Made by a program: the position numbers and the translations under genes. A DNA stretch of 34,681 nucleotides from a virus. The notes below the pieces were generated by a model. The model searched no databases, was not told the origin of the DNA, and saw nothing but the letters and a program-made list of their open reading frames with translations. Shown piece by piece: positions 6,499-33,641 of the stretch (the first letter of the stretch is position 1; every line of letters starts with the position of its first letter). The stretch is taken from IMG/VR virus record IMGVR_UViG_3300022602_000255, positions 1 to 34,681 of that record. The stretch is one strand, 5' to 3'.

Positions 6499-7460
6499 CA
6501 ATAAGCTCCGCCACCACCACCCAAGAATTGCTGTCTTGGCACAAACCGAATAGCCGCCTTCTCTCTATCCTCGCCAGCAGCAATATCAAACTGCTCATCA
6601 TAAGCTTGCTTTAACATCTGTACTCGCTGAACTAATTCTGGGACTTTCATAGCTATGTGGTAGGCTAACCCAGCAGCCACGGCCGGCAAAAACCTGAAAT
6701 TCATGTCTTGGACATTCGGGCCTGCGCCCGCGTCCTGTACACGCCGTAAGCGCCAGTAAGCAAAGACATAGGGTGTAGATGCATCGGGTGTTGGCCATAC
6801 AGTTACTGCTGGTAGTTTAGGAACATAGACCGCAGCACCCAGTACATAAGACTGAGCCGTGGTGTTCGCTTGTGCCCTAAAGCAATTCTGTAAGGTATTA
6901 CCTGAAATGTATGAATAGTAAATAATCTCACCGCTTGTAGAGCCAAGCTGGATATAGCCATTTGCAGCCAATCCTACCGTGCTAGAAAGCGTTATTGTGG
7001 TAGCCGTAGATGATACTGCTGCTGCCACTTGAATTGTTGTTGTAGACGTTTCTCCGGACAATCTCTGAACCCATACCTGAATAGGTCTAGCCTGGGTTAG
7101 TTTGTTGGGGATAGTCGCATAGGTTGATACACTGATACGAGTGATAGTTAGGTCAGATTGATTAGAGGTGCTGTTAGCATTGGTGCGGATCACATGATCC
7201 AACAAATCAATCGTATCAGTGGGCAACGCATAAGTATTTAAACCAGGCGTAAGAGTAATCGTACCCTGGTCTATAGTCCACATATTAATGCCACGGTTTT
7301 GCCACTCGATGGTCATTAAGTTCATCGATCTGCGAGCAGTACGCAAATCGTAACCGGAACGCATCTCCCTACCAGCTCTCTCCCACGCTTCTTCTGCTAT
7401 CTCAGCAAAGTCTAGGTCAAAGCTGGTTGTTCCGGTAGTGGTTCCGATATTTATGGACAT
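6498..7460 (-). CDS. Putative head-tail adaptor protein with inserted beta module
   Basis: This is a 320-residue protein. The N-terminal half (FAEIAEEAWERAG, LRTARRSMNLMTIEWQNRG, LTPGLNTYALP) and the C-terminal helix-rich part (FLPAVAAGLAYHIAMKVPE, LKQAYDEQFDIAAGEDREKA) fit adaptor or tail-tube proteins of podovirus-like phages. Residues about 142-213 (TITLSSTVGLAANGYIQLG, EIIYYSYISGNTLQNCFRAQ) are a common mobile beta module spliced into the core, which then resumes at PAVTVWPTPD. The start overlaps the upstream stop (TAATG). The adaptor assignment is from pattern memory, not from a search. Confidence 0.65.
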   Translation of the reverse strand: MSINIGTTTGTTSFDLDFAEIAEEAWERAGREMRSGYDLRTARRSMNLMTIEWQNRGINMWTIDQGTITLTPGLNTYALPTDTIDLLDHVIRTNANSTSNQSDLTITRISVSTYATIPNKLTQARPIQVWVQRLSGETSTTTIQVAAAVSSTATTITLSSTVGLAANGYIQLGSTSGEIIYYSYISGNTLQNCFRAQANTTAQSYVLGAAVYVPKLPAVTVWPTPDASTPYVFAYWRLRRVQDAGAGPNVQDMNFRFLPAVAAGLAYHIAMKVPELVQRVQMLKQAYDEQFDIAAGEDREKAAIRFVPRQQFLGGGGGAY

Positions 7461-7765
7461 TATGCATTAGGCTGTTCTACAGCAGATGAGGCTTGTTCGA
7501 CAGATGTATCTGCAACAGATTCGTCAGCATCCACGGTAGTGTCAGTATTATCAGCACTATCATCCACGGCAGTAACTTCTTCATCTACCTTCTCCTGCGT
7601 AACTTCTTTAGGCGCATTTTGAATTGGATTGAGTTGTGCATCCAAATCATTAATTACTCCTTGAAGATCAGGATCAATGCCGTTATAAGCAGCCATTTGA
7701 TGCTCTGCTCTTTTGTTTAATTCATCAAGAATAAATAATGCATCTTCGTTGCTAATCTGAATCAT
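7460..7765 (-). CDS. Acidic small protein
   Basis: This is a 101-residue protein. The N-terminal half is helical (NEDALFILDELNKRAEHQM, DLQGVINDLDAQL). The second half is disordered and acidic (EKVDEEVTAVDDSADNTDTTVDADESVADTSVEQ). Both ends overlap the neighbours by TAATG/ATGA-type junctions. Such an acidic tail next to several very basic small proteins could allow charge pairing, but no function is recognised. Confidence 0.6.
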   Translation of the reverse strand: MIQISNEDALFILDELNKRAEHQMAAYNGIDPDLQGVINDLDAQLNPIQNAPKEVTQEKVDEEVTAVDDSADNTDTTVDADESVADTSVEQASSAVEQPNA

Positions 7766-20418: not shown

Positions 20419-21900
20419 TTAATAATAAGCTCTACGCCTTTTCCAGTATTGAGGTTCTTCTTCCTCATCACTGGGTAATCTTAAAAACCCACCCTGCCTA
20501 AATCTAATCAACGCCTGGCTTGAGCTATCCACATAGTCATCATGTTCCGCATTAGGGAACCTGGCCATCTCTTCAATTAAATCATCCGCCCACCGTTTAT
20601 CTGGCGCCCATACTTTCCCTGAATTAAACAAATCGGCCACACTATTAAGCCGCACAAATTTGTCATTTCCACGGGTAGGAGTGTACTCGCTAACCGGTAT
20701 TCCCATAGATCTTAATTCAAACACAAGCGGAGCACCAGCTGCTTTTGCCTCAACAATAAACGCATCGGGCTGCCATTCTTTATATCCTTCCAGCGCAGCT
20801 TTCTTGAGTGCAGGAAATTCCAGCTTATCTCTATATGCATCAAGGAGAATAATATGTTTATCAGTCGGGTCTTCGTTTAAACTAAAAACACCCCAGGTCG
20901 TACACGCAGAATAATCCGCCCGCTCCGATTTTGTAAACGCAGTATCCCAACTCTGAATAATAAAATCACAAGGCGGCGGCATATCACTCTTCCACCTTCT
21001 CCACGATTCCCGCTTAATAATCGCGCCCTCTTCACCAGTTGGCTGCTGCTGATACTGGGCGTTCCACTTGTATATCCCAATCTCTTCTTTAACAGCGGAC
21101 AATTCTTTAAGCGGCCAAAACTCAGGCCATAGCGGATTACCAGACGGCATGATCGCCGGTAACTCAATAACCTCCCAGTCCTCGCCGGAGGCGTTACGCA
21201 AAATTTTGCCAGTTAAGTCCTTGTCACTCCACCGTGTCATCACAATCACAATCCGACCACCAGGTTGCAGACGCTGACGCGGGCCAGATGTATACCATTC
21301 AAACACAGAGTCAAATACAGTCGGATCCCCTTGGGCTAACCTCGCCTCCTGCTCAGAGTGAGGGTCATCAATAATCATTAAGTCCGCGCCTTTACCCGTC
21401 ATCGTACCGCCCACACCAATTGCTATATATTCACCCCCAGCATTGGTGTTCCATTTACCAGCGGCCTTACTATCAGCAGCCAAAGCAATACCAGGAAAGA
21501 TAGAATCGTATTGCTCGCTATCCACCAAATTACGAACCTTTCTACCAAATCCAACAGCCAAATCGGCAGTGTTACTCGACTGGATAACTTTCTTATCAGG
21601 ATAGTTACCAAGGAACCAACTAGGCAAAAGGTAAGATGCAAACTCAGACTTAGTATGCCGAGGAGCCATATTGATAATAAGACGCTTACAATCCCCATGT
21701 ACAACCTCTTCAAATTTTTTAGCCATCACAGCGTGGTGTCTGCCGTGCACAAACCCCGGCCACATATATTTCACATAATCCAAAAAGCTCTGCTGACACT
21801 TTTCCCTTTGAAGCGCGTCCTTGTACTCCGTCATTTGTTTTAAAAACTTCTCTTGCTCGGTAGCCGGCAAGCGAGACAACAACTCTTCAATCTGGGACAT
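20419..21900 (-). CDS. terL: Terminase large subunit
   Basis: This is a 493-residue protein. The ATPase part has a Walker A-like MAPRHTKS (78-85) with the deviant form common in this terminase family, Walker B MIIDDP (175-180) and a coupling segment VIVMTRWSDKDLTG. The nuclease part shows QSWDTAF (D319), FIVEAKAAG (E384) and HDDYVDSSSQAL (D454-D458), as expected of an RNase H-fold nuclease that cuts concatemers. It drives DNA into the prohead through the portal encoded downstream. Start: ATG six bases after AGGA. It overlaps the regulator upstream by 14 bases. Length is normal for the family. Confidence 0.93.
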   Translation of the reverse strand: MSQIEELLSRLPATEQEKFLKQMTEYKDALQREKCQQSFLDYVKYMWPGFVHGRHHAVMAKKFEEVVHGDCKRLIINMAPRHTKSEFASYLLPSWFLGNYPDKKVIQSSNTADLAVGFGRKVRNLVDSEQYDSIFPGIALAADSKAAGKWNTNAGGEYIAIGVGGTMTGKGADLMIIDDPHSEQEARLAQGDPTVFDSVFEWYTSGPRQRLQPGGRIVIVMTRWSDKDLTGKILRNASGEDWEVIELPAIMPSGNPLWPEFWPLKELSAVKEEIGIYKWNAQYQQQPTGEEGAIIKRESWRRWKSDMPPPCDFIIQSWDTAFTKSERADYSACTTWGVFSLNEDPTDKHIILLDAYRDKLEFPALKKAALEGYKEWQPDAFIVEAKAAGAPLVFELRSMGIPVSEYTPTRGNDKFVRLNSVADLFNSGKVWAPDKRWADDLIEEMARFPNAEHDDYVDSSSQALIRFRQGGFLRLPSDEEEEPQYWKRRRAYY

Positions 21901-22294
21901 CTAAATTCCTAAAATTTATATACACCGGCCGCACACTCCTATCCATCCCCTTCATCTTCTTTAACACCCCAAGCTTAACCAGCCGATCTATTATCTCGTG
22001 CGTACTCCCCAAACTCTTACTCTTCCTGTGCTCCATCACCTCTCTCACAGTCGGCCCATATCCCCTCATCTTCCAATACTCATCTATAAATATAAATACG
22101 TTTGCTTGGTTTTTTGTCATCTTAAGTTCTAAACACTGTTCGTAATTTAGATCCTTTCGTTTTGCAATCATCTTAGTATTTAATACTTTAGTGGGGTGGC
22201 ACATGAAACGTTTAGTGTGACCCCCTAAAATAGTTCTAATTAAACGCTCTCTCTTGCGTTCCATTAATTCTAAATACTTACTAACTGGATCCAT
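21887..22294 (-). CDS. LexA-like winged-helix DNA-binding protein (no peptidase domain)
   Basis: This is a 135-residue protein if it starts at the ATG 22292-22294, which follows GAGGAG at seven bases. An upstream in-frame ATG (22346-22348) has no ribosome site and would run through a direct repeat. The C-terminal half (MTKNQANVFIFIDEYWKMRG, GPTVREVMEHRKSKSLGST, IIDRLVKLGVLKKMKGMDRS) matches the LexA DNA-binding domain pattern, including the GxxPTVRE turn. LexA's autocleavage domain is missing. Sitting between TerS and TerL it may regulate late genes or act in packaging. Confidence 0.65.
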   Translation of the reverse strand: MDPVSKYLELMERKRERLIRTILGGHTKRFMCHPTKVLNTKMIAKRKDLNYEQCLELKMTKNQANVFIFIDEYWKMRGYGPTVREVMEHRKSKSLGSTHEIIDRLVKLGVLKKMKGMDRSVRPVYINFRNLDVPD

Positions 22295-22305
22295 TGCTTT
22301 GCTCC

Positions 22306-22349
22306 TCAGTCCTATAGTCCTGCATTCTTCAGTCCTATAGTCCTGCATT
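22306..22349. repeat. Two 21-bp direct repeats, possible operator
   Basis: A 21-base unit (core AGTCCTATAGTCCTGCAT) occurs at 22306-22326 and 22329-22349 with no mismatch and a 23-base period. Each unit itself contains two AGTCCT half-copies around CTATAG-like sequence. It lies in the gap just before the LexA-like gene, close to its ribosome site, so it could be the site that protein binds. Confidence 0.6.
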
Positions 22350-22369: not shown

Positions 22370-23134
22370 CTATGCTGATTTAAGACCGAGGGGGTCATCA
22401 TTGTTTTTGGAGGGTGGGTGTGGAATATTTTTAGATAGTGATTGAGGGTCTGGAATAGTATGCGTGGGTGCTAGTGACTCCGTCTGAGCTGAAGTGGGGG
22501 TCGGGGCGGGGTGGGTCTGCGCGTCCTGGAAACTTTCCCCGGCCTCCTGCTCCTGCTCGTTCGCGCTCTGCGTGTGCTCTGTTAATTGTGGCGCGGTTAG
22601 TTCGTTGAGTAATGAGTCGGCATCGCGGGCAATTACATCTTCTGCCGAGCTATTCACTAAAGAGCTAATCTCTTTTAATATCTTGGCCTTTATATCCTCG
22701 CTTGAGTGTATAACCTTGCTCTCTGTCCTGTGCGTGAAGAGACTTACCTCCGTCATTGTGCCAATGGTGCGGGCGCATTGAACCTTAACCGCCTGGGAAG
22801 TCTCGGGGTTTGTGAGCACATCGACCAGCGTAGAGACGGCCAAGGAGCGCAGGCCTTCCGCGGTTTGATATTTCATCACTTCATTCGCCCGGTTTATAGC
22901 CTCTATGGTTTGGGCTATGTTCGGGTTTGATCTGAGCTTTGACGCTTCGACCTTCGCAGTATTTGGCTTTGCCTTCGCACTATAAGCCCTGCGATATGCT
23001 CCCGAGCCTGTCTCTCCTTTGACTATCTCTTCAGCAAATCTCTTTTGTTTCGGTGTTAATCCTTTACCCAGGCCTCCGAGCACATCCACAAACGGATTGT
23101 TTTTAATCTCCTCCTTTATTGTTGCTCTAGGCAT
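22370..23134 (-). CDS. terS: Terminase small subunit
   Basis: This is a 254-residue protein. The core LTPKQKRFAEEIVKGETGSG, AYRRAYS, NTAKVEASKLRSNPNIAQTI matches the HTH region of the Terminase_2-type small subunit, which recognises phage DNA and feeds it to TerL. Residues about 95-160 are helical (VSTLVDVLTNPETSQAVKVQ) and probably make the ring. The last ~65 residues are Pro/Ser/Gln-rich and disordered. GGAG lies at a good distance before the ATG. It is the first gene of the late operon, directly behind the control region, with TerL one gene later. Confidence 0.85.
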   Translation of the reverse strand: MPRATIKEEIKNNPFVDVLGGLGKGLTPKQKRFAEEIVKGETGSGAYRRAYSAKAKPNTAKVEASKLRSNPNIAQTIEAINRANEVMKYQTAEGLRSLAVSTLVDVLTNPETSQAVKVQCARTIGTMTEVSLFTHRTESKVIHSSEDIKAKILKEISSLVNSSAEDVIARDADSLLNELTAPQLTEHTQSANEQEQEAGESFQDAQTHPAPTPTSAQTESLAPTHTIPDPQSLSKNIPHPPSKNNDDPLGLKSA

Positions 23135-23170: not shown

Positions 23171-23199
23171 ATCATACCAGAACACAACCAGAACTGCAA
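23171..23199 (-). promoter_or_regulatory. Extended -10 promoter candidate for the late operon
   Basis: On the minus strand TTGCAG (23194-23199), a 17-base spacer ending TGG, and TATGAT (23171-23176) give an extended -10 (TGnTATGAT) with a weak -35. It lies 37 bases before the TerS start. A weak -35 fits a promoter that needs an activator or phage factor. Confidence 0.5.
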
Positions 23200-23225: not shown

Positions 23226-23254
23226 TATTGCATGAGCCGGGATTGTATGCAATA
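23226..23254. promoter_or_regulatory. Inverted repeat TATTGCAT/ATGCAATA, operator candidate (distal)
   Basis: TATTGCAT at 23226-23233 and its exact complement ATGCAATA at 23247-23254 are separated by 13 bases. The same half-sites recur at 23333-23351. The site lies upstream of the -35 of the minus-strand promoter candidate. Confidence 0.55.
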
Positions 23255-23297
23255 GATAAAAGCTATCGACTTTCAATTTTGCATAGAAACAATTCAA

Positions 23298-23326
23298 TTT
23301 ACAAGGTAAACGCAATACTTTAAGAT
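23298..23326 (+). promoter_or_regulatory. Sigma70-type promoter candidate for the plus-strand island
   Basis: TTTACA (23298-23303), a 17-base spacer and TAAGAT (23321-23326) form a -35/-10 pair. The start point would fall in the palindrome at 23333-23351, so a bound repressor would block it. The first gene starts 48 bases after the -10. Confidence 0.55.
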
Positions 23327-23332
23327 CACGTT

Positions 23333-23351
23333 ATGCAATAGGTTATTGCAT
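23333..23351. promoter_or_regulatory. Palindromic operator candidate ATGCAATA-ggt-TATTGCAT
   Basis: A perfect 8-bp inverted repeat with a 3-base centre overlaps the expected transcription start of the plus-strand promoter. It uses the same 8-bp half-site as 23226-23254, in opposite arrangement. Such placement is typical of a repressor or autoregulator site. Confidence 0.65.
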
Positions 23352-23373
23352 TAACTACTAAGGAGCTTACACC

Positions 23374-23601
23374 ATGACCAACGAACAATTATTACAGATC
23401 AAACAATCAGAGGCTTTTAGACGTTCAGCGAACCGCATGGAACGCGCGAACGCAGGGAGCTTTGCTACTGCTATCGCCCGGGCTTACTACTGCGCGGACA
23501 CAAACAATGCTCGCAAATTAGAGCAGGGATTTGCCGAGCTATTCCAACGCTTTATGAGTCCGGATGAGCTAGCACTATTCCGCGAGCCGACAACCGTTTG
23601 A
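23374..23601 (+). CDS. Small hypothetical protein, first gene of the plus-strand island
   Basis: This is a 75-residue, mostly helical protein (NEQLLQIKQSEAFRRSANRM, GSFATAIARAYYCADTNNAR, FAELFQRFMSPDELALFREP). The start follows AAGGAGCTTACACC, a leader reused before several genes here. It is the first gene behind the operator-covered promoter. Similar proteins occur, to my memory, on proteobacterial plasmids and mobile elements, but I know no function. Confidence 0.65.
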   Translation: MTNEQLLQIKQSEAFRRSANRMERANAGSFATAIARAYYCADTNNARKLEQGFAELFQRFMSPDELALFREPTTV

Positions 23602-23605
23602 ACCC

Positions 23606-23624
23606 TTGGGGACTTGTTCCCCAA
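23606..23624 (+). other. Intercistronic hairpin
   Basis: TTGGGGA (23606-23612) pairs with TCCCCAA (23618-23624) around a five-base loop, right after the first gene's stop. There is no T run, so it is more likely an mRNA stabiliser, processing site or attenuator than a terminator. Confidence 0.5.
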
Positions 23625-23643
23625 TAACTTAGGAGCTTAAAAA

Positions 23644-23832
23644 ATGCTAACTCTATCAACTGAAACCCCTCAAACCTATTTCACTCGAGACCAGGCCGAG
23701 CGCATTTGCTCACAGTGCACCGCGGACGAGACGGAGGGATGGACTTACAAAGTAGAAAACGTCAACAACTCTAAGAAACTTGTTGCTATTCGCGTATTTG
23801 ATGAAACCAACCACCCTCTAGGGTACTTCTAA
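23644..23832 (+). CDS. Small hypothetical protein
   Basis: This is a 62-residue protein (TYFTRDQAERICSQCTADET, EGWTYKVENVNNSKKLVAIR, VFDETNHPLGYF). The order helix-Cys-x-x-Cys followed by WTY.V and a final V.DE....LGY strand is a small alpha/beta pattern I associate with uncharacterised mobile-element proteins. The single Cys pair could bind metal only as a dimer. The leader is AGGAGCTTAAAAA, of the shared type. Confidence 0.65.
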   Translation: MLTLSTETPQTYFTRDQAERICSQCTADETEGWTYKVENVNNSKKLVAIRVFDETNHPLGYF

Positions 23833-23844
23833 GGAGCTTACACA

Positions 23845-24084
23845 ATGAACCACATACCAAGAACCGCATTAAAAGATATTAGCCTCAGAATGAATGAGGG
23901 CTATGACCTGGGGCTAGCACTGTTCCGAGTCTCTAACCATTACGCGCTCGACCGCCAACAACTGCGCGAGGCATACGAAAGAAAGATTAAACGTGAGGAG
24001 CTTGCCTCTAATACCCTGCTCGCGCTCGGTATGCTTTCCGCCTTCCTTTGCCCGGTTTTCTTTTACTTACTCGCAAGGGCTTAA
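23845..24084 (+). CDS. Small protein with C-terminal membrane segment
   Basis: This is a 79-residue protein. The N-terminal 50 residues are charged helices (DISLRMNEGYDLGLALFRVS, RQQLREAYERKIKREELASN). Residues about 55-77 (LLALGMLSAFLCPVFFYLLA) form one membrane span, so the soluble part probably faces the cytoplasm. It begins after AAGGAGCTTACAC and its last codons are themselves the ribosome site of the next gene (GCAAGGGCTTAA). A tail-anchored helix protein could act on host membrane processes; this is inference. Confidence 0.65.
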   Translation: MNHIPRTALKDISLRMNEGYDLGLALFRVSNHYALDRQQLREAYERKIKREELASNTLLALGMLSAFLCPVFFYLLARA

Positions 24085-24086
24085 TT

Positions 24087-24362
24087 ATGAAGGCATACAT
24101 TCACACCAACAATTTAAGGCCGGACGGCACGAAAGATTGTTTTCTAACCGTCTCCGCCCCTGCCAAATCAGAACCGCTCGCTTGGCAACTTTTAGGACTT
24201 CAGGCCACGCGCTCCGGCTATGGTTCGCGCATCCCTACACAGTACAAAATTCAATATTTAGGAAAGTGGAGGCGCGTTTACTGTCGCATTTATTCCAATA
24301 TTGGAACGCTTTATATTGGGAAACTATCCGACCGGCTAACTATCAGCATAGAAAAGGCTTAA
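24087..24362 (+). CDS. Plasmid-type conserved hypothetical protein
   Basis: This is a 91-residue protein starting at the ATG that follows AAGGGCTTAATT. It reads LRPDGTKDCFLTVSAPAKSE, TRSGYGSRIPTQYKIQYLGK and WRRVYCRIYSNIGTLYIGKL. This WRRVYCR.YSN.GT.YI pattern is one I recall from many plasmid and prophage proteins of Proteobacteria, of unknown function. The end (GAAAAGGCTTAA) again supplies the next gene's ribosome site. A longer frame from 24048 is open but lacks a ribosome site. Confidence 0.7.
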   Translation: MKAYIHTNNLRPDGTKDCFLTVSAPAKSEPLAWQLLGLQATRSGYGSRIPTQYKIQYLGKWRRVYCRIYSNIGTLYIGKLSDRLTISIEKA

Positions 24363-24364
24363 TT

Positions 24365-24613
24365 ATGAAATTCGACCACTACACCTATCACTTGGCCGGC
24401 CATTATTTGCCCGCGCTCATCAACGGAGACTACTCCGGGCTAAACGACCAGGAGGAAGCCGAGCTAAACGTTTTTATTGACTCGCTCCCGGTATCCGGGC
24501 ATTTTGACGTTATTAGCGAAGAACCAGATTTTAAACAATGCGACATTTCCGAACTGCACGCGGACTGCTACGAAGTGCGCTTATATTTTCAAACCCAGGA
24601 GGCTACACAATGA
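24365..24613 (+). CDS. Plasmid-type conserved hypothetical protein (HLAGHYLPALINGDYSGL type)
   Basis: This is an 82-residue acidic protein beginning MKFDHYTYHLAGHYLPALIN and followed by GDYSGLNDQEEAELNVFIDS. The N-terminal helix ending in ALINGD.SGL.D.E is a recognisable conserved pattern of small plasmid and phage proteins (I believe DUF6926-like, unverified). In other elements it tends to lie near proteins like the preceding one, which supports a shared, plasmid-like module. The stop overlaps the next start (ATGA). Confidence 0.7.
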   Translation: MKFDHYTYHLAGHYLPALINGDYSGLNDQEEAELNVFIDSLPVSGHFDVISEEPDFKQCDISELHADCYEVRLYFQTQEATQ

Positions 24614-24867
24614 ACCAGATAGAAATCGAGGCCGGAGCTTTTACGCTTACGCACTCGCCAAGCGCTCCCCAGGTAGACACTACCGGAGATTTATTTGGAG
24701 CTACTCCCGCCCTTAAGATGAAACACTTGGAGAGCTTCGCGCCCGCCATGTACTTCGCATTGATCGAAACCCTAGAACTACTCACAGACCCGGAGGCCGA
24801 GCCAGAGGACGCAGACCAGGTTACAGAGAAAATTCAACAAATACTCAACCAAATCAAAGGAGCTTAA
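24610..24867 (+). CDS. Small acidic hypothetical protein
   Basis: This is an 85-residue protein starting at the ATG that overlaps the previous stop, behind GGAGG. The first 35 residues are extended and polar (IEAGAFTLTHSPSAPQVDTT). The rest is acidic helix (FAPAMYFALIETLELLTDPE, AEPEDADQVTEKIQQILNQI). The last codons AAA GGA GCT TAA double as ribosome site for the next gene. Family unknown; an acidic surface could mimic DNA, which would be speculation. Confidence 0.6.
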   Translation: MNQIEIEAGAFTLTHSPSAPQVDTTGDLFGATPALKMKHLESFAPAMYFALIETLELLTDPEAEPEDADQVTEKIQQILNQIKGA

Positions 24868-24870
24868 ACC

Positions 24871-25317
24871 ATGAAACAACAAATAATTGACGCGCTTTAT
24901 AGCTTCGCCAACAAACGCCCAGGACTAGAACCCCGCGACTACATTAGAAGTTGGGACGATAGCGAAGGCCGGGCAACATACCGCGCAGAATCCAGGAACA
25001 TAACCAAAGACCTAAACCATGCCCGCACACTACTTCGTCGGCTTGAACTCTCAGGCATCAGCGCACAGGAAATAATCGAGGCCTCTAAAGAAGCATTTTC
25101 GGGGCGCTTAACTATTTCCGCGACTGATGACGGCATTGTTAAAGTGTCCTATTGTGTAGGCCAATACTTTCCGACCGAATACAGAAAGGCAGTCGCTTGC
25201 GTATGCGCTCGGGCGCTCTGGAACTATTGGCGCGAGGATTCAAAAAGCGCGGACAGTATTAGACAGCTTGCCTGCCGTGAATTTCCCCGCGCTATCGCTC
25301 GCGCTTATTTTAACTAA
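24871..25317 (+). CDS. Hypothetical protein, 148 aa
   Basis: This is the largest protein of the island. It is helical at the N-terminus (KQQIIDALYSFANKRPGLEP), carries a DYIRSWDDSEGRATYRAESR segment, a central RRLELSGISAQEIIEASKEA and a C-terminal helix with Cys residues (AVACVCARALWNYWREDSKS). The start follows AAGGAGCTTAAACC. Plasmid-borne small proteins with similar YI..W...E.R..YRAE patterns come to mind, but I cannot name a function. Confidence 0.65.
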   Translation: MKQQIIDALYSFANKRPGLEPRDYIRSWDDSEGRATYRAESRNITKDLNHARTLLRRLELSGISAQEIIEASKEAFSGRLTISATDDGIVKVSYCVGQYFPTEYRKAVACVCARALWNYWREDSKSADSIRQLACREFPRAIARAYFN

Positions 25318-25326
25318 AGCCAAACT

Positions 25327-25521
25327 ATGAATAATTTAATTATTGCCTACCATGAAAAACACGAACGCAACGGATGGGGCGAAGTATGCAGACACCCGGC
25401 AACCTGGGAAGGATGGCACGATTTTGACCGCTCCATGATCGCAGAGCTAATTAAAAACGGCTCGGAGGTTATCACCTGCGGGTGGAATATGTACCAAGTA
25501 ATTAAGGAGGCCAAACAATGA
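25327..25521 (+). CDS. Small hypothetical protein
   Basis: This is a 64-residue, Trp-rich protein (HEKHERNGWGEVCRHPATWE, GWHDFDRSMIAELIKNGSEV, ITCGWNMYQVIKEAKQ). Four Trp, two Cys and four His residues suggest a compact fold. The ribosome site before it is weak (TAAAGCCAAACT), so it may depend on coupling with the upstream gene ten bases away. The end overlaps the next start (ATGA). Confidence 0.55.
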   Translation: MNNLIIAYHEKHERNGWGEVCRHPATWEGWHDFDRSMIAELIKNGSEVITCGWNMYQVIKEAKQ

Positions 25522-25679
25522 ACCACACCGAACGCGACTACATACAAGCCGGCTTCGACTTCGAGCGCGGACGTATCCAGGCCGACATTTTGCGCTTAAT
25601 GATCGAATCGGAACACATCAGCGACCGCCAGGAGGCGCGCAGATTGATCGACCAGGGACGCGCAGAGGCCAGACGATAG
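25518..25679 (+). CDS. Small helical protein, 53 aa
   Basis: The ATG at 25518 follows AAGGAGG at seven bases and overlaps the previous stop. The protein (MNHTERDYIQAGFDFERGRI, LRLMIESEHISDRQEARRLI) is helical and Arg-rich. A start of the kind D.YI.AG.DFE.GRI recalls the METYSKEDRHYIAGFEAGCD start of the right-arm protein at 33583-33783, which may be a distant relative. It ends just before a strong terminator. Confidence 0.6.
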   Translation: MNHTERDYIQAGFDFERGRIQADILRLMIESEHISDRQEARRLIDQGRAEARR

Positions 25680-25681
25680 AC

Positions 25682-25723
25682 GCGCTCACAGTCCACGCGC
25701 AAGCGCGGATTGTGGGAGCTTTT
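25682..25723 (+). terminator. Long hairpin terminator with GCAA tetraloop
   Basis: Arms 25682-25698 and 25703-25719 pair almost completely (two mismatches, two G-T pairs) around a GCAA tetraloop, followed by TTTT at 25720-25723. It starts three bases after a stop codon and ends the first half of the island. The long stem might also serve as an RNA structure with its own role. Confidence 0.75.
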
Positions 25724-25760
25724 AACGGCTCAATTCAATCAACTAAAAGGAACTAAAACA

Positions 25761-25943
25761 ATGGAAACTTTAGAACTGAACGAGTACCAACTAAACGGAT
25801 TCAAAGACCGCAAGGCATACTTGGAGAGCTTGTGCGAAGAGTACGACCGCCTGATTGTCTACTCGCTCGCATCAATCCTGGGAGCATCCGAGGACTTCGA
25901 CGGGCTTTTAACGAGCTTAGAGGACTACTGCGAAGAATACTAA
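25761..25943 (+). CDS. Small acidic protein, 60 aa
   Basis: The ATG at 25761 follows AAAAGG; a longer frame from 25710 would overlap the terminator. The protein (METLELNEYQLNGFKDRKAY, LESLCEEYDRLIVYSLASIL, DFDGLLTSLEDYCEEY) is acidic and helical. It stands alone between two terminator blocks, so it may have its own transcript, though I see no clear promoter in the 40 bases between. Confidence 0.6.
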   Translation: METLELNEYQLNGFKDRKAYLESLCEEYDRLIVYSLASILGASEDFDGLLTSLEDYCEEY

Positions 25944-25952
25944 AGCATTACA

Positions 25953-25976
25953 CCCAGGAGAAATCCTGGGCATTTT
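25953..25976 (+). terminator. Terminator with GAAA tetraloop (first of a tandem pair)
   Basis: CCCAGGA (25953-25959) pairs with TCCTGGG (25964-25970) around GAAA, followed by CATTTT. It comes ten bases after the 60-aa gene and is followed at once by a second hairpin. Confidence 0.75.
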
Positions 25977-25980
25977 CGCG

Positions 25981-26003
25981 CCAGGGTTCGCCCTGGTAAT
26001 TTT
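25981..26003 (+). terminator. Terminator with TTCG tetraloop (second of a tandem pair)
   Basis: CCAGGG (25981-25986) pairs with CCCTGG (25991-25996) around TTCG, followed by TAATTTT. The pair of terminators insulates the two halves of the island. The next 14 bases are the recurrent GGAATAGTAACGAA motif. Confidence 0.75.
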
Positions 26004-26017
26004 GGAATAGTAACGAA
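26004..26017 (+). repeat. GGAATAGTAACGAA motif, copy 1
   Basis: This is the first of six copies in 26.0-28.2 kb. It directly follows the tandem terminators and precedes an AAGGAATT ribosome site and the 46-aa gene. The position right after a terminator fits a transcription start or an mRNA 5' element. Confidence 0.7.
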
Positions 26018-26031
26018 AAAGGAATTAAAAA

Positions 26032-26172
26032 ATGTGGATTGTCTACTACATGGAAAAGTGCCCGATTGTTGGAGATTATTTGGAGCACAAGAAATTTGAT
26101 AGCTACCAGGGCGCGAGAGCATTTGCCCGAGTAAAGCGCGGGCGCATAGAAAAACGGCTCGCATTTCAATAA
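26032..26172 (+). CDS. Small basic protein, 46 aa
   Basis: The ATG at 26032 follows AAGGAA at eight bases. The protein (MWIVYYMEKCPIVGDYLEHK, KFDSYQGARAFARVKRGRIE, KRLAFQ) has a short beta-like start and a basic helical end, and could bind nucleic acid. It opens the second, more AT-rich half of the island. Confidence 0.6.
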   Translation: MWIVYYMEKCPIVGDYLEHKKFDSYQGARAFARVKRGRIEKRLAFQ

Positions 26173-26206
26173 TGGAATAGTAACGAAAGGAAACACAAAA
26201 TGAAAA
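26173..26206 (+). repeat. 34-bp perfect direct repeat, copy 1 (motif plus leader plus start codon)
   Basis: It holds GGAATAGTAACGAA (26174-26187), then AGGAAACACAAA and ATGAAAA. The identical 34 bases recur at 26508-26541. The repeat covers the whole translation-start region of the gene behind it. Confidence 0.9.
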
Positions 26207-26352
26207 GATGGAAGATTGAAATAGAACTTGAATTACAAGACGATGCAGACCCGAATAAATGGGTTTATACAGCCATTGAGGAACTGCTAGAAGATGGAGA
26301 GGCATTGATTAGTGGCAGACATATAGAAAAGGAGCTAAAAAATGAAGATTAA
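26200..26352 (+). CDS. Small acidic protein, 50 aa
   Basis: The protein (MKRWKIEIELELQDDADPNK, WVYTAIEELLEDGEALISGR, HIEKELKNED) begins with an alternating strand and continues as helix, a beta-alpha pattern. Its start lies in the 34-bp repeat. The last eleven bases overlap the next gene, and AAGGAGCT within its final codons is that gene's ribosome site. Confidence 0.65.
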   Translation: MKRWKIEIELELQDDADPNKWVYTAIEELLEDGEALISGRHIEKELKNED

Positions 26353-26515
26353 ATTTGAAGATTTAGAAGTGGGTCAAATATTTTATGACCCAAACACTCA
26401 AGAGAAATTTGAAAAAGTTTGCGGGAATAGTGCCGACTGGTTAAATGGATTGGGGAAAAGCGCAAAGCTGTGCACGTTTGATGCGGACGAACTTGTTTAT
26501 TTAATTTTGGAATAG
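26342..26515 (+). CDS. Small hypothetical protein, 57 aa
   Basis: The protein (MKIKFEDLEVGQIFYDPNTQ, EKFEKVCGNSADWLNGLGKS, FDADELVYLILE) reads like a small SH3- or OB-like beta barrel (FEDLEVGQIFYDP). It starts after AAGGAGCTAAAA inside the previous gene. Its stop TAG is part of the second GGAATAGTAACGAA motif, so motif and gene end are physically joined. Confidence 0.65.
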   Translation: MKIKFEDLEVGQIFYDPNTQEKFEKVCGNSADWLNGLGKSAKLCTFDADELVYLILE

Positions 26516-26541
26516 TAACGAAAGGAAACACAAAATGAAAA
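26508..26541 (+). repeat. 34-bp perfect direct repeat, copy 2
   Basis: It is identical to 26173-26206, 335 bases downstream. The motif part is 26509-26522. The two copies flank a two-gene cassette (50 aa and 57 aa) that could be lost or duplicated by recombination between them. Confidence 0.9.
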
Positions 26542-26708
26542 AATTTATTATCAGAGCTAGTGAAACAGTTTATTACTGGAAAGAAGTACGAGCGAATAGT
26601 GAGCAAGAATTAAAAGATGAAATATCAAAAGGAGAAATTCTATTTAACAACGATGACATAGTAGAAGGCGATCATTTTGAATTGATTGATATAGAGGAGA
26701 TTAAATAA
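26535..26708 (+). CDS. Small acidic protein, 57 aa
   Basis: The protein (MKKFIIRASETVYYWKEVRA, NSEQELKDEISKGEILFNND, DIVEGDHFELIDIEEIK) has strand-helix-strand character; the first ~30 residues (a strand, then V.A.SEQELKDEI) resemble small DpnD/PcfM-like or phage beta-alpha proteins, but the match is weak. It starts inside the 34-bp repeat and its stop overlaps the next start (TAATG). Confidence 0.65.
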   Translation: MKKFIIRASETVYYWKEVRANSEQELKDEISKGEILFNNDDIVEGDHFELIDIEEIK

Positions 26709-26899
26709 TGATTACAGAAAACGAACTAAAAGAAGCGGGTTATACAGTTCTTAAAAAAGGCGCGTGGCTAAGACTTGACCCAGGGATTCTCTCGAATGAC
26801 TGGGAATTGATTTGTGAAGATTTGAAAGTAGACCCGAATTGTGACGAGATCATTGTCGCTATTACCGGAGTAAAAGAAGTTTATAAGGAGAATGAATAA
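26708..26899 (+). CDS. Small acidic hypothetical protein, 63 aa
   Basis: The protein reads ITENELKEAGYTVLKKGAWL, RLDPGILSNDWELICEDLKV, DPNCDEIIVAITGVKEVYKE. It alternates helix and strand and has no catalytic motif. TAATG overlaps at both ends and GAGGAG upstream point to a coupled operon. Family unknown. Confidence 0.65.
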   Translation: MITENELKEAGYTVLKKGAWLRLDPGILSNDWELICEDLKVDPNCDEIIVAITGVKEVYKENE

Positions 26900-27114
26900 T
26901 GGCTAAATTTATTATTGAAGATGGACAACCAATAGTGAGGTCGGATTGGTGGATAGATGATTTTGAAATGAGGGCTACTGATCTGGGGTTGACGCTAACC
27001 CAGGAACAAATCATTCAGGCCATGAAGGAGGTTGCGGATTGTCACGATGCCGAGCAGGGTATCAACTGGGCAACTATTGACTACGCATTAGAAAATCAAA
27101 GGGAACAACAATGA
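26899..27114 (+). CDS. Small hypothetical protein, 71 aa
   Basis: The protein (KFIIEDGQPIVRSDWWIDDF, MRATDLGLTLTQEQIIQAMK, EVADCHDAEQGINWATIDYA) has an acidic N-terminus and helical body. The order WWIDDFE..A..LGLTLT..QI...M......D...GI.W..I is a pattern I have seen in uncharacterised phage and plasmid proteins. Overlap by ATGA with the next gene. Confidence 0.65.
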   Translation: MAKFIIEDGQPIVRSDWWIDDFEMRATDLGLTLTQEQIIQAMKEVADCHDAEQGINWATIDYALENQREQQ

Positions 27115-27350
27115 ATACAGACAATTTAGAACGGGCAATTACTCTTGTTTGGAACGCATACAAGGACGAAATAATCCAGGAGGGAGATTGGTGGTTTAAC
27201 TTGGACGAGCATACGCTCAATTTTTTTGACCAGGAAAGAGATGGCCTTATGACTGTTTCGGTTTATAACGCGCCAAATAATCAGACTTGTTACGATGATC
27301 CATTTGATTTTTCAATGGAATTTATTTACAACGCGGAGGCCTTAGCATGA
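27111..27350 (+). CDS. Small acidic hypothetical protein, 79 aa
   Basis: The protein (NLERAITLVWNAYKDEIIQE, GDWWFNLDEHTLNFFDQERD, NNQTCYDDPFDFSMEFIYNA) is acidic and aromatic-rich. It overlaps both neighbours by ATGA. The acidic, aromatic composition is common among small inhibitor or DNA-mimic proteins, but nothing here proves that role. Confidence 0.65.
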   Translation: MNTDNLERAITLVWNAYKDEIIQEGDWWFNLDEHTLNFFDQERDGLMTVSVYNAPNNQTCYDDPFDFSMEFIYNAEALA

Positions 27351-27502
27351 CACAAAAAGATTACCAAGACATAAGCAAAGCATTGAGCCTACTCTGGCTA
27401 ATTTTGCAGGAAAAAGGTGGTGGCACGGATGAGCAAAAACTAATATTAAACGATGCCCAGGACGTATTACGCGGTTATGAAAGTTGTGGGGGTGAAGTAT
27501 GA
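27347..27502 (+). CDS. Small helical protein, 51 aa
   Basis: The ATG at 27347 overlaps the previous stop. GGAGG lies nine bases upstream. The protein (MTQKDYQDISKALSLLWLIL, QEKGGGTDEQKLILNDAQDV, LRGYESCGGEV) forms two helices joined by a Gly loop. Function unknown. Confidence 0.6.
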   Translation: MTQKDYQDISKALSLLWLILQEKGGGTDEQKLILNDAQDVLRGYESCGGEV

Positions 27503-27648
27503 CAGTAGCAGAACTAATTCAAGAGCTTTTAAAAGTGGATGATATAACCAAACAGGTATATACATTTAATAACCAAGAACTGCGCCCGGTAACAATGGTA
27601 GATGAGCTGTCCGACCGGGTAGATATAAATTTAGGCGAGCAACTATGA
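27499..27648 (+). CDS. Small hypothetical protein, 49 aa
   Basis: The protein starts MTVAELIQELLKVDD and ends VDELSDRVDINLGEQL. The start T.AELIQELLK.. is the usual opening of a small conserved phage family whose members begin with an acidic helix followed by a short beta unit. Overlaps of ATGA at both ends tie it into the operon. Confidence 0.6.
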   Translation: MTVAELIQELLKVDDITKQVYTFNNQELRPVTMVDELSDRVDINLGEQL

Positions 27649-27833
27649 ACTATCAACGCATCCAACTAGACACTTGGCTCAAAACTTACGCACTACACCC
27701 AGAGGATTTTGTGGCCTGGCTTGACCAGGTAGACGATCTAAAAGTGTTTAAAACTGTTACATTCGCGCTTGAACCAGACGAATCCACGACCGGAACAGCA
27801 CAGAAAATCACCCTGGAGGAGCGAAATGGATAA
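27645..27833 (+). CDS. Small hypothetical protein, 62 aa
   Basis: The protein reads NYQRIQLDTWLKTYALHPED, FVAWLDQVDDLKVFKTVTFA, LEPDESTTGTAQKITLEERN. It is alpha/beta and slightly acidic. Its last codons (CTGGAGGAGCGAAAT) contain the strong ribosome site of the tiny membrane protein that follows. Function unknown. Confidence 0.6.
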   Translation: MNYQRIQLDTWLKTYALHPEDFVAWLDQVDDLKVFKTVTFALEPDESTTGTAQKITLEERNG

Positions 27834-27930
27834 TGATGGAATAGTAACGAACTGGATAATCGTAGATATTGCGGTAGCTATAATCGTAGCTCTACTTCTA
27901 ATAGGGCTTGGCATATGGCTATTGAGCTGA
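27826..27930 (+). CDS. Tiny single-span membrane protein, 34 aa
   Basis: ATG at 27826 follows GGAGG at a good distance, overlapping the previous gene by eight bases. The product (MDNDGIVTNWIIVDIAVAII, VALLLIGLGIWLLS) is a short polar head followed by one membrane span of about 23 residues. It resembles phage membrane micro-proteins such as holin-like or superinfection-exclusion peptides. The GGAATAGTAACGAA motif lies inside it and is read as GIVTN. It is below the usual gene-calling size. Confidence 0.6.
   Translation: MDNDGIVTNWIIVDIAVAIIVALLLIGLGIWLLS
27838..27851 (+). repeat. GGAATAGTAACGAA motif, exact copy inside the 34-aa gene
   Basis: It matches copies at 26004, 26174 and 26509 base for base but lies in coding sequence (read as Gly-Ile-Val-Thr-Asn). 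Looser copies follow at 27987-28000 (GGAATAGTGACGGC) and 28142-28155 (GGAGTAGTGACGAA), about 150 bases apart. Confidence 0.7.
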
Positions 27931-28139
27931 TACCCCCAGTAAAAGACAAAGCGATATTTGTCCTGTATATCGTTCAACAACCCTCTGGAATAGTGACGGC
28001 TAGCGCAGACTATATGGGGAAATCAGATGAGGTGTTGGACATTGGAATGGAGGCCTTAGCCCACCTCAATGCCCTCTCCCACCTGAGCGAACACAATCTG
28101 TACGTCAGCAACCGATTAAATTCACTTGATATTCAATGA
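27915..28139 (+). CDS. Small hypothetical protein, last gene of the island
   Basis: This is a 74-residue protein (AIELIPPVKDKAIFVLYIVQ, QPSGIVTASADYMGKSDEVL, DIGMEALAHLNALSHLSEHN). A strand pair is followed by a helix; the ribosome site is weak, so it probably relies on readthrough from the overlapping 34-aa gene. A degenerate motif copy is read as GIVT in it. Its end overlaps the end of the TOPRIM gene on the other strand by 18 bases, so the two operons converge without a gap or terminator. Confidence 0.6.
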   Translation: MAIELIPPVKDKAIFVLYIVQQPSGIVTASADYMGKSDEVLDIGMEALAHLNALSHLSEHNLYVSNRLNSLDIQ

Positions 28140-28946
28140 TCGGAGTAGTGACGAACCGCTAGCAAAAATACCGTTAGCCATATGATGATCGTTAAAATCA
28201 TAGCCAAGGACATCGGAAATCCAATATGGAAATCCAATTTCCTTGGCTGTTTTTTCGCCTGTTAGTGACGCATCATTATCCGCAACCACAAACCCAGACT
28301 TTAACTGCTTTGCTACTTTAATCATATTGCTAGCCGAGAAACAAACATATATCTTGTACCGATATTTAAACGACTTCAATACTTTTCTAATTGATAGTGC
28401 CGTAGCGTACCCTTCGCAAAGAATATTAGTTCCCTTGTTATCGAATATAAATGACGCATTGGCCGTGCGTTGACCGAATAGAAACTTCTTATTGCCCTGC
28501 TCGTCTATCAACTGGCAGCCAACCAACGCGCCGTCTATCCTCATCGGTATGACTAAAATCTTTTTCCCGTCTTTATTCCAGACCATTCCCTCCTCGTCCT
28601 TGAACCCTTTGGCATCCAGGTAAGGATGGTGTAATGACTCGCATTGATTGAGAATCCAGACCGCCTTTTGTCCCGCCTGTTTCTGTTGTTGTAACGTCTT
28701 ATCGTGTACTGCCTTGGCTTCCCTGGCCATCTGAGTTAAGTTAATACCGACTGTGGTTTCCGGCTTCCATACAGATATTTCAGTCTCTGTCGCATGATTC
28801 TGTACCAGGCCATAGTTACCCATGTACTTGACTGCACCATTCTTTTTCTTTGGGTGATCCTCTGTTGGATACCGCGCCCACCTACCCAATGGGGGAATAG
28901 TATCTAAAAGTATGCCGTGCGCCCTTGCAAAATTAACGAAGTCCAT
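28122..28946 (-). CDS. TOPRIM-domain primase-like protein
   Basis: This is a 274-residue protein from the ATG 28944-28946 (AGGA eight bases upstream); a longer frame lacks a ribosome site. The TOPRIM motifs are ILCEGYATALS with E178, VADNDAS with D223 and D225, and D250. The N-terminal part (GRWARYPTEDHPKKKNGAVK, GNYGLVQNHATETEISVWKP) is the usual front of phage and plasmid TOPRIM primases, but there is no zinc-binding Cys cluster. It probably synthesises primers with the helicase two genes upstream. The start overlaps the HTH gene by 14 bases. Confidence 0.8.
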   Translation of the reverse strand: MDFVNFARAHGILLDTIPPLGRWARYPTEDHPKKKNGAVKYMGNYGLVQNHATETEISVWKPETTVGINLTQMAREAKAVHDKTLQQQKQAGQKAVWILNQCESLHHPYLDAKGFKDEEGMVWNKDGKKILVIPMRIDGALVGCQLIDEQGNKKFLFGQRTANASFIFDNKGTNILCEGYATALSIRKVLKSFKYRYKIYVCFSASNMIKVAKQLKSGFVVADNDASLTGEKTAKEIGFPYWISDVLGYDFNDHHMANGIFASGSSLLRSLNIK

Positions 28947-29172
28947 AGCTCTTATCCTTGCCAAATATGCAATCAAATACTTTTCTATCCGCCAAATAAT
29001 ATCCCTTATCCCAAATTGAATATACAACTGGCACATCAAACTCCTTGCGAAGTATTGTTATATCCCGCTTGAAAGTGGCCGGAGATATTTTTAACCGCTC
29101 AATGAATGCGCTTTGTGGTAATGCCGTGCTTGTGTTTAGCATCTGGTTATAAATTGGTAGTCTTTTAATCAT
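28933..29172 (-). CDS. Standalone helix-turn-helix protein (WYL/DeoR-like N-domain)
   Basis: This is a 79-residue protein. It reads RLPIYNQMLNTSTALPQSAF, IERLKISPATFKRDITILRK and EFDVPVVYSIWDKGYYLADR. The order helix - SxATFKRDI recognition helix - L...F..P..Y....GY.L wing is that of the DNA-binding domain of WYL-type regulators, without the WYL ligand domain. Between helicase and primase-like genes with ATGA overlap, it may be an operon autoregulator or an origin-binding accessory protein. Confidence 0.7.
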   Translation of the reverse strand: MIKRLPIYNQMLNTSTALPQSAFIERLKISPATFKRDITILRKEFDVPVVYSIWDKGYYLADRKVFDCIFGKDKSYGLR

Positions 29173-31926: not shown

Positions 31927-32123
31927 GTGTTCTTTTCCTTCTTTACCTCTTTCCACTCGCCGCCCTCAACTGGTTGCCAACCATGTGTCTCTGTCAGCAC
32001 TTCGTTTTGATGCCACTGCTCAAGCACGGTTATGGTTTGATTTTGACTGTCGTAAGAATCGTAGTAATAATATTTTTTATCTACCCATCTGAGTTGTGTT
32101 GTTGGTGTTAGTCTTTTATTCAT
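31923..32123 (-). CDS. Small Tyr/Trp-rich protein ending in KEKNT, 66 aa
   Basis: The protein reads NKRLTPTTQLRWVDKKYYYY, DSYDSQNQTITVLEQWHQNE, THGWQPVEGGEWKEVKKEKN. It is beta-like, with L.WV...YYYYD..... TVL.QW, and W.PV..GEW.EV is frequent in small phage proteins. It overlaps the ParB-like gene's stop by ATGA. Function unknown. Confidence 0.6.
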   Translation of the reverse strand: MNKRLTPTTQLRWVDKKYYYYDSYDSQNQTITVLEQWHQNEVLTETHGWQPVEGGEWKEVKKEKNT

Positions 32124-32917
32124 ATGATCTCCGTTTCGAGCTTCTTAATCTTTTTCTCTAGCCATTTGATTTGCTTGCGAAGCTCATCGTTCTCATTCTG
32201 ATACTGATCCCGGCTCAGCTTTACCGCCTTCAACTCCATCTCCATGTCCTTGATCTGTTGGCGCAAGTCTTTGATGTGCTCTTTTGCTTCGACTGGATCG
32301 GGCGAATTCTTGATGGCCAACTGATCTGTCAACAACTGGTTTTCCTGGATTAATATCTCTAATGCCTCGTTAGCTGTTTCTAATTTAGATTCATTAACTA
32401 CTGGTTCAGGTGTTTTGGTTTCAACCTTAGCCGGACGCTTACGCTCCTGTACTTCGCCGTCCTTATCCTTGTACTTGATAGTCTCTGGCTGTTTGCCCTT
32501 GCGTAATCCTGCGACAAACGGTTGGGATACGTTGCATTGCTTGGCTATCTCTGCCGTGCTCCAGCTCGACCACTCAAAGTTATCGAGCATCATCATTACT
32601 GCGTTGCGCTTATCCTCGGTTGTCCTGGGTTTGCCGTGCTTGTCATTGGCTCCTACGGCGTACAGAATGGCCTCTGATAGCGTTCCTGCTGTGACTTCTG
32701 CCTCAATGCCTGTCCGCTTTGCTTTGAGGGCTGCAAAGTACCTATGAAAGCCATCTGCCAGGTAGTAATGTATGCCGTCATGGAATACTCTTACTGGCGG
32801 AAACTCCTGCCCTTCAAGCATAGCCTCCGCATAGTTATCTACTGTAGGCTGATCAATCTCCTTTCTGCTCTGCGTCCCGCAATCTATTCTTAATTTTTTC
32901 AATGTGACTATTTGCAT
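32120..32917 (-). CDS. ParB-like nuclease-domain protein with HTH and coiled coil
   Basis: This is a 265-residue protein from the ATG 32915-32917 behind AGGAAGGAA. Residues 1-75 form a ParB/sulfiredoxin-like fold with LADGFHRYFAA (53-63). An HTH lies at about 119-140 (WSTAEIAKQCNVSQPFVAGL). From ~190 on, a long coiled coil (LIQENQLLTDQLAIKNSPDP, IKDLRQQIKDMEMELKAVKL) suggests dimers. Phage ParB-like proteins act as regulators, nucleases or segregation-like DNA-binding proteins; without a ParA partner here, regulation or DNA processing is likelier. Confidence 0.75.
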   Translation of the reverse strand: MQIVTLKKLRIDCGTQSRKEIDQPTVDNYAEAMLEGQEFPPVRVFHDGIHYYLADGFHRYFAALKAKRTGIEAEVTAGTLSEAILYAVGANDKHGKPRTTEDKRNAVMMMLDNFEWSSWSTAEIAKQCNVSQPFVAGLRKGKQPETIKYKDKDGEVQERKRPAKVETKTPEPVVNESKLETANEALEILIQENQLLTDQLAIKNSPDPVEAKEHIKDLRQQIKDMEMELKAVKLSRDQYQNENDELRKQIKWLEKKIKKLETEII

Positions 32918-33050
32918 GGTCTGTTCCTTCCTGTTTGGTTTCAAAAGTTAATCCGCATTTTTTGCAACGGTAGATTGTGCCAAACGTTTGTCTGACTTCT
33001 CCGCGCTCCGCTCCTGGTCTGCCCAGGTATGTTCTTATTGTTTCAATCAT
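32853..33050 (-). CDS. Small zinc-finger-like protein
   Basis: The ATG at 33048-33050 lies five bases after AGGA and gives 65 residues; the codon before it is also ATG. The protein (IETIRTYLGRPGAERGEVRQ, IYRCKKCGLTFETKQEGTDH, ANSHIEKIKNRLRDAE) has a C2H2-like finger: CKKC, then H..SH. It overlaps the ParB-like start by 65 bases, more than other junctions here. Probably nucleic-acid binding. Confidence 0.55.
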   Translation of the reverse strand: MIETIRTYLGRPGAERGEVRQTFGTIYRCKKCGLTFETKQEGTDHANSHIEKIKNRLRDAEQKGD

Positions 33051-33424: not shown

Positions 33425-33641
33425 ACCATCCCCTTGAAAGTAAACCTAATATTGCATACCCGCCGGCCAGCAGTAGAACGTACTCAATGAAATTATCAAT
33501 GTGATACGTCCAGTCTGGCTTGACGTTTAACATTCTTTTTTGTATCCAGTCCTGATCTGGATTGTGATGATTAATCTTGGGTTCATAGTAGATCCCAATT
33601 TGTAGTCCTGTTTTCGTCTGATACGGTATTACTCTTGCCAT
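33417..33641 (-). CDS. Small membrane protein, 74 aa
   Basis: AAGGA lies six bases before the ATG. The soluble N-terminus (RVIPYQTKTGLQIGIYYEPK, INHHNPDQDWIQKRMLNVKP) is followed by one membrane span near residues 52-69 (FIEYVLLLAGGYAILGLL) and a short tail. It overlaps the next upstream gene by 59 bases, unusually long, yet both have good ribosome sites. Function unknown. Confidence 0.6.
   Translation of the reverse strand: MARVIPYQTKTGLQIGIYYEPKINHHNPDQDWIQKRMLNVKPDWTYHIDNFIEYVLLLAGGYAILGLLSRGWYE

Follow-up and report, generated by a model that had tools for sequence, protein, structure and literature searches.

Organization of the locus

The window, that is the whole stretch of DNA analyzed, is a linear IMG/VR virus record of 34.7 kb with only one divergent gap, in which the sites described below (23226-23351) are located. 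Late genes lie on the minus strand in the order terS, a gene for a LexA-type HTH protein, terL and structural genes; small genes are read from the plus strand from 23374 onwards, and genes for a helicase, a primase and a ParB-like protein are placed on the minus strand, heading towards this small-gene island (Table 1). No near relative of the window was found among 50,697 phage records, where TerL alone gave matches, and weak ones. A search of genome contigs for a TerS relative, made to find a provirus and thereby the host, returned none, and tRNA and Rfam searches gave no match. A profile search yielded 44 TerS relatives, and 29 upstream regions were compared; the relatives share descent and cannot be read as independent counts.

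Island genes are shuffled among the relatives, and the promoter and leader in front of them stay conserved. The leader AAGGAGCTTACA is found twice, at 23360 and 23831; AGGAGCTTA is additionally present at 23631 and 24858. In one relative (L102, the L028 contig), an ORF at 7065-7739, whose TDPPYGINE motif makes a DNA methyltransferase likely, lies between the helicase and primase genes, roughly where the window has its WYL-like gene.

Table 1. Features of the divergent region and the genes around it, with forms of the start-point site in relatives
Feature	Position	Strand	Remarks
LexA-type winged HTH protein without S24 peptidase domain	21887..22348	-	PF01726 E 1.2e-8; model resembles LexA DNA-binding domains
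Terminase small subunit (terS), first gene of late operon	22370..23134	-	PF03592, phrog_51
terS (late operon) promoter TTGCAG-17-TATGAT, TG one base before -10 box	23171..23199	-	identical place and sequence in L019, L007, L020, L006, L022
GTTCTGGTTGTGTTC, GTTC-N7-GTTC direct repeat in terS promoter spacer	23180..23194	-	separate element
Central pair P1, TATTGCAT-N13-ATGCAATA (TATTGCA-N15-TGCAATA)	23226..23254	.	between divergent promoters
Third dyad AATAGATAAAAGCTATC	23251..23267	.	relatives have AATAGGTTTTACCTATC or GATAGGTTTTCCCTATC
Partial half-site ATGCAAAA (TTTTGCAT on plus strand)	23277..23284	-	kept in L006, L007, L020, L022; absent in L019, L041
Plus promoter TTTACA-17-TAAGAT of small-gene island	23298..23326	+	top plus-strand match in scan blind to boxes
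Partial half-site ACGCAATA, inside plus-promoter spacer	23310..23317	+	kept in L006, L007, L020, L048
Start-point operator ATGCAATA-GGT-TATTGCAT	23333..23351	+	exact palindrome in 3 relatives; half-site 8-10 nt past -10 box
Partner N5			window, L006, L007, L020, L048 (one change)
Partner N0 TGCAATATTGCA			L019, L046
Partner N19			L022, L023
Partner 15 bp upstream, outward polarity			L045, L028; near matches L041, L042, L019
Start-site form TGCAATATCGCA			L029, L030, L032, L035
Start-site form GCAATATATTGC			L027, L039, L049
Small-gene island, behind plus promoter	23374..28139	+	gene content mosaic among relatives
79-aa DeoR/WYL-type HTH protein	28933..29172	-	weak candidate regulator; HTH_11 E 0.001, below cut-off
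ParB-like protein, HTH and coiled coil	32120..32944	-	candidate regulator; phrog_1033 E 1e-22; ATG start 32917 likely

A cluster of half-sites on and upstream of a promoter start

Four of the window's five exact ATGCAATA/TATTGCAT words fall within these 126 bp, at 23226-23233 (minus strand), 23247-23254 (plus), 23333-23340 (plus) and 23344-23351 (minus); the fifth, at 33450, is intragenic, and no further one occurs in the 34.7 kb. They form two inverted repeats with centres of 13 and 3 bases, as described in the sequence-only reading, and the partial copy that it placed near 23277 is present there. It overlooked a sixth site, the other of the two one-mismatch copies, at 23310, and did not mention that the two inverted repeats are opposite in polarity (TATTGCAT..ATGCAATA versus ATGCAATA..TATTGCAT). 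First-order Markov simulations of the window (300 runs for exact words, 60 for words with at most one mismatch) gave maxima of 2 and 4 sites, respectively, in any 126 bp, compared with 4 and 6 observed, and the clustering is far beyond chance. That the sites are functionless AT-rich repeats is a notion to which the shortness of 8-base words lends itself, but it is contradicted by these simulations and by conservation across diverged relatives, and is barely conceivable. A separate dyad, resembling AATAGGTTTTACCTATC, partly coincides with the right half of P1; relatives of both groups have it too.

Promoters were called by consensus match alone. TTTACA-17-TAAGAT is the best-scoring plus-strand promoter in the divergent gap; the second palindrome begins 6 bases past its -10 box and thus covers the likely start point, in agreement with what had been predicted for it. 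The terS promoter carries no ATGCAATA site, and a different direct repeat, GTTCTGGTTGTGTTC, is found there instead.

Conservation of the start-point site

A lack of the palindromes in relatives had been named beforehand as one observation that would speak against the sequence-only reading; the comparison was made, and the sites survived it. A scan of viral contigs for ATGCAATA-N3-TATTGCAT matched 16 contigs, three of which an independent protein search recovered as relatives with TerS identities of 84-93%. With promoters scanned blind to the boxes, the -10 box of the top plus promoter has a G[CT]AATA half-site 8-10 nt downstream in 18 of the 29 upstream regions; among them are promoters whose -35 and -10 sequences differ. 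The start half-site is fixed and its partner variable, with intervals of 0, 5 or 19 bp on the downstream side and of 15 bp on the upstream side. L033, L034 and L036, whose promoter is different, have lost the full box; all that they carry is GCAATATC at 14 nt. Neither boxes nor dyads of this kind occur in wider relatives with TerL identities of 73-76%, indicating that the system belongs to the window's clade. As for unrelated contigs that matched the palindrome patterns, the N13 matches inspected had no window-like regulatory context, except for L208, which matches the L028 promoter; the other N13 matches inspected were thus taken as chance.

Group II relatives L029, L034, L035, L051, L053 and L054 have dyads of their own at a comparable place upstream of terS, for example GTGTAAACGTTTACAC, CTGTAAACGTTTACAG and GTGTCA..TGACAC. 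Their arms change together, so that they could be either altered operators or a paired stem.

A palindrome at the beginning of a transcript might also function as a 5' RNA hairpin which stabilizes the island mRNA. Indeed, ATGCAATA-GGT-TATTGCAT of the window can form an 8-bp hairpin at the 5' end, and stems of 9-10 bp are formed in L022 and L023; however, no stable fold is obtained in L019, L041, L045, L046 and L028 despite the kept TGCAAT, and P1 lies outside the predicted transcripts. With a fold that is stable in the N5 and N19 forms and weak in the N0 and single-site forms, the dyad was rejected as a conserved RNA hairpin, and we find such a role very unlikely.

Geometry of the central pair

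Half-sites of P1 are invariant (14/14 columns), whereas only 4/15 columns of the spacer are (7 distinct sequences from the window and nine relatives); within the 57-bp block this gives a hypergeometric p of 3e-5, with shared descent ignored. Outside P1, ATTGCA-N15-TGCAAT was encountered in the fetched contigs scanned only at the plus promoters of L028 and L045. Centres of the half-sites are separated by two helical turns (21 bp) in P1 and by a single turn (11 bp) in the start-point site of the window. The distance from P1 to the start half-site is 95.5-97.5 bp, near nine helical turns, in every lineage having both, and that from P1 to the terS start differs by 11 bp, about one turn, in L041, L042, L045 and L046. 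This geometry suits binding to one face of the helix, without proving looping, and the helical phasing is inseparable from common descent in these data.

The sequence-only reading proposed that one regulator could switch between the island and the late operon by looping. Such a mechanism would require an oligomeric protein that bridges P1 and the start-point site and controls both transcription units together. The constant P1-start distance and the one-turn shift relative to the terS promoter in some lineages argue for it. On the other hand, constancy of the distance may reflect simple descent, P1 is missing from that place in L023, L027, L028, L048 and all of group II, most of which keep a start-point site, and the terS promoter itself is devoid of the site. 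The part of the proposal that stood is the occurrence of conserved like sites on the start and between the promoters; joint control of both promoters by one regulator, with a switch between them, and looped repression are possible but rather doubtful.

Candidate regulators

The LexA-like and WYL-like proteins had been put forward as possible regulators. Of 17 relatives tested, only L019 and L022 share the WYL-like gene with the window. It is absent from G024 (L041) and G012 (L028), whose contigs span the region, and this protein is disfavoured because both relatives keep the sites. Much of the clade has LexA-like and ParB-like proteins, the former being encoded in 33 of 36 relatives tested. 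Between G016, which has the box, and G017 (L033), which does not, 105/108 residues of the LexA-like and 271/273 of the ParB-like protein are identical, a result that goes against the LexA-like candidate and disfavours either protein as the sole determinant. The difference between the two genomes is a swapped cassette comprising the promoter and first genes. Since G017 manages without the box despite having nearly the same LexA-like, ParB-like and TerS proteins, the box is not indispensable. No small island gene following the boxes was found among the relatives, whose island content is mosaic.

The same pair of genomes bears on the possibility that the sites serve terminase in DNA packaging (pac recognition). 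TerS rings can contact repeated sites, as in pac of the SPP1 type, and the sites of the window adjoin terS. Nevertheless, TerS of G016 and G017 is identical at 232/249 residues with the box in G016 only, and the box follows the plus promoter start rather than terS, which makes a packaging function highly improbable.

AlphaFold modelling gave low to medium confidence for the LexA-like and ParB-like proteins; the low-confidence model of the latter has matches in ParB, Noc and KorB. Being short and palindromic, the N0 form ATGCAATATTGCA recalls parS and the KorB operator. Sites of ParB and KorB are short palindromes with a fixed spacing; here, by contrast, 3-5 bp separate the halves in the window form and 13-15 bp in P1, the spacing varies among relatives, and the ParB-like protein is retained where the box is absent.

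The LexA-like protein and the GTTC repeat

The LexA-like protein (153 aa) has the winged HTH that in LexA is N-terminal, with the match limited to residues 76-140 and a modelled fold matching 3k2z, 3jso and 1lea. A C-terminal S24 autoprotease/dimerization domain was not recognized (TIGR00498 31.8 bits, compared with a cut-off of 110.95), which distinguishes it from Caulobacter LexA, and no match was obtained in the phage collection. Its recognition helix reads SLGSTHEII in group I and SLGNVHQTI in group II.

The GTTC-N7-GTTC repeat inside the terS promoter has the form of the LexA SOS box of Caulobacter crescentus (PMC9578287). It is the sole copy in the window, where 0.87 is expected by chance, and is restricted to group I, most members of which keep it. 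The ATGCAATA sites are distinct from this box, and were rejected as LexA boxes because the only GTTC-N7-GTTC of the window lies outside P1 and the start-point site. Because the repeat is restricted to group I and located in the promoter of the very operon to which the LexA-like gene belongs, GTTC rather than TGCAAT seems the more natural partner of this protein or of host LexA.

The GTTC pair is shifted by 11 bp in L042, L045, L046 and L049, one copy being lost and one gained adjacently, which suggests selection for the pair. L041 and L048 have it in degenerate form only.

A putative repressor site at the start of the small-gene island

A literature search for ATGCAATA as an operator found nothing relevant. 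For phage repressors of the λ CI/Cro type, the divergent control region contains a number of similar operators, one of which lies over a promoter start. The window likewise has several like sites, one covering a promoter start; unlike in the λ type, its sites are not of fixed length, their spacing differs between relatives, and no CI-like repressor gene is adjacent.

Binding of the boxes by a host transcription factor, CytR-like or other, through which the phage would read the state of its host, is possible, if tentative. No phage gene was found to track the presence of the box. Operators of CytR, a LacI-family protein of Escherichia coli, consist of TGCAA/TTGCA half-sites in inverted and other arrangements with relaxed spacing from zero to about three helical turns (PMC3454398). 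The window shares this core and the relaxed spacing, TGCAA-N2-3-TTGCA boxes of CytR are formally close (PMC3454398), and TGCAATATTGCA of L019 and L046 fits TGCAA-N2-TTGCA. However, the CytR octamer is GTTGCATT and that of the window TATTGCAT, CytR sites lie between CRP sites and those of the window on the start point, and the polarity of P1 is opposite. No CytR/LacI-type gene was recognized in the window genes scanned, the HTH candidates tested being of LexA, ParB and DeoR/WYL types. Moreover, among γ-proteobacteria CytR is known only from Enterobacteriales and Vibrionales (PMC3454398). On paper the sites would act in a similar manner, but membership among CytR operators cannot be claimed.

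The comparison of sequences indicates that the operator region is real and conserved. The sites, their conservation, the position at the start point and the divergence of the spacers were observed directly, and we consider it probable that they constitute a divergent phage control switch in which a putative repressor bound at +1 represses the small-gene island. Most likely, the switch is of a fairly ordinary kind, and the sites are docking sites for a repressor. A DNA-binding protein would recognize the half-site (A)TGCAATA and, at the plus promoter, occupy the start half-site together with a nearby second one. Its presence there would block initiation or escape of RNA polymerase, keeping the island repressed. 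The second bound pair, P1, about 95 bp upstream and between the promoters, would probably stabilize this repression; from P1 to the terS start is about 60-90 bp, and an influence on that promoter is possible as well.

One point against an operator is that the half-sites differ in spacing and polarity to a degree unusual for a rigid dimer. A phage regulator of a new type, with loosely joined DNA-binding heads, could bind TGCAAT half-sites singly, whichever their polarity and whether 0, 5, 15 or 19 bp apart; one half-site would be fixed at +1, and the operator would move together with the leading genes of a mosaic early operon. We regard this as unlikely.

Repression from the start point, as favoured here, would give this clade of uncultured phages a well-defined and conserved operator at the sole divergent promoter region of the window. 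Tolerance of repressors to changed half-site spacing is known mainly from CytR, and a fixed half-site at +1 with a movable partner may serve as a test case for it.
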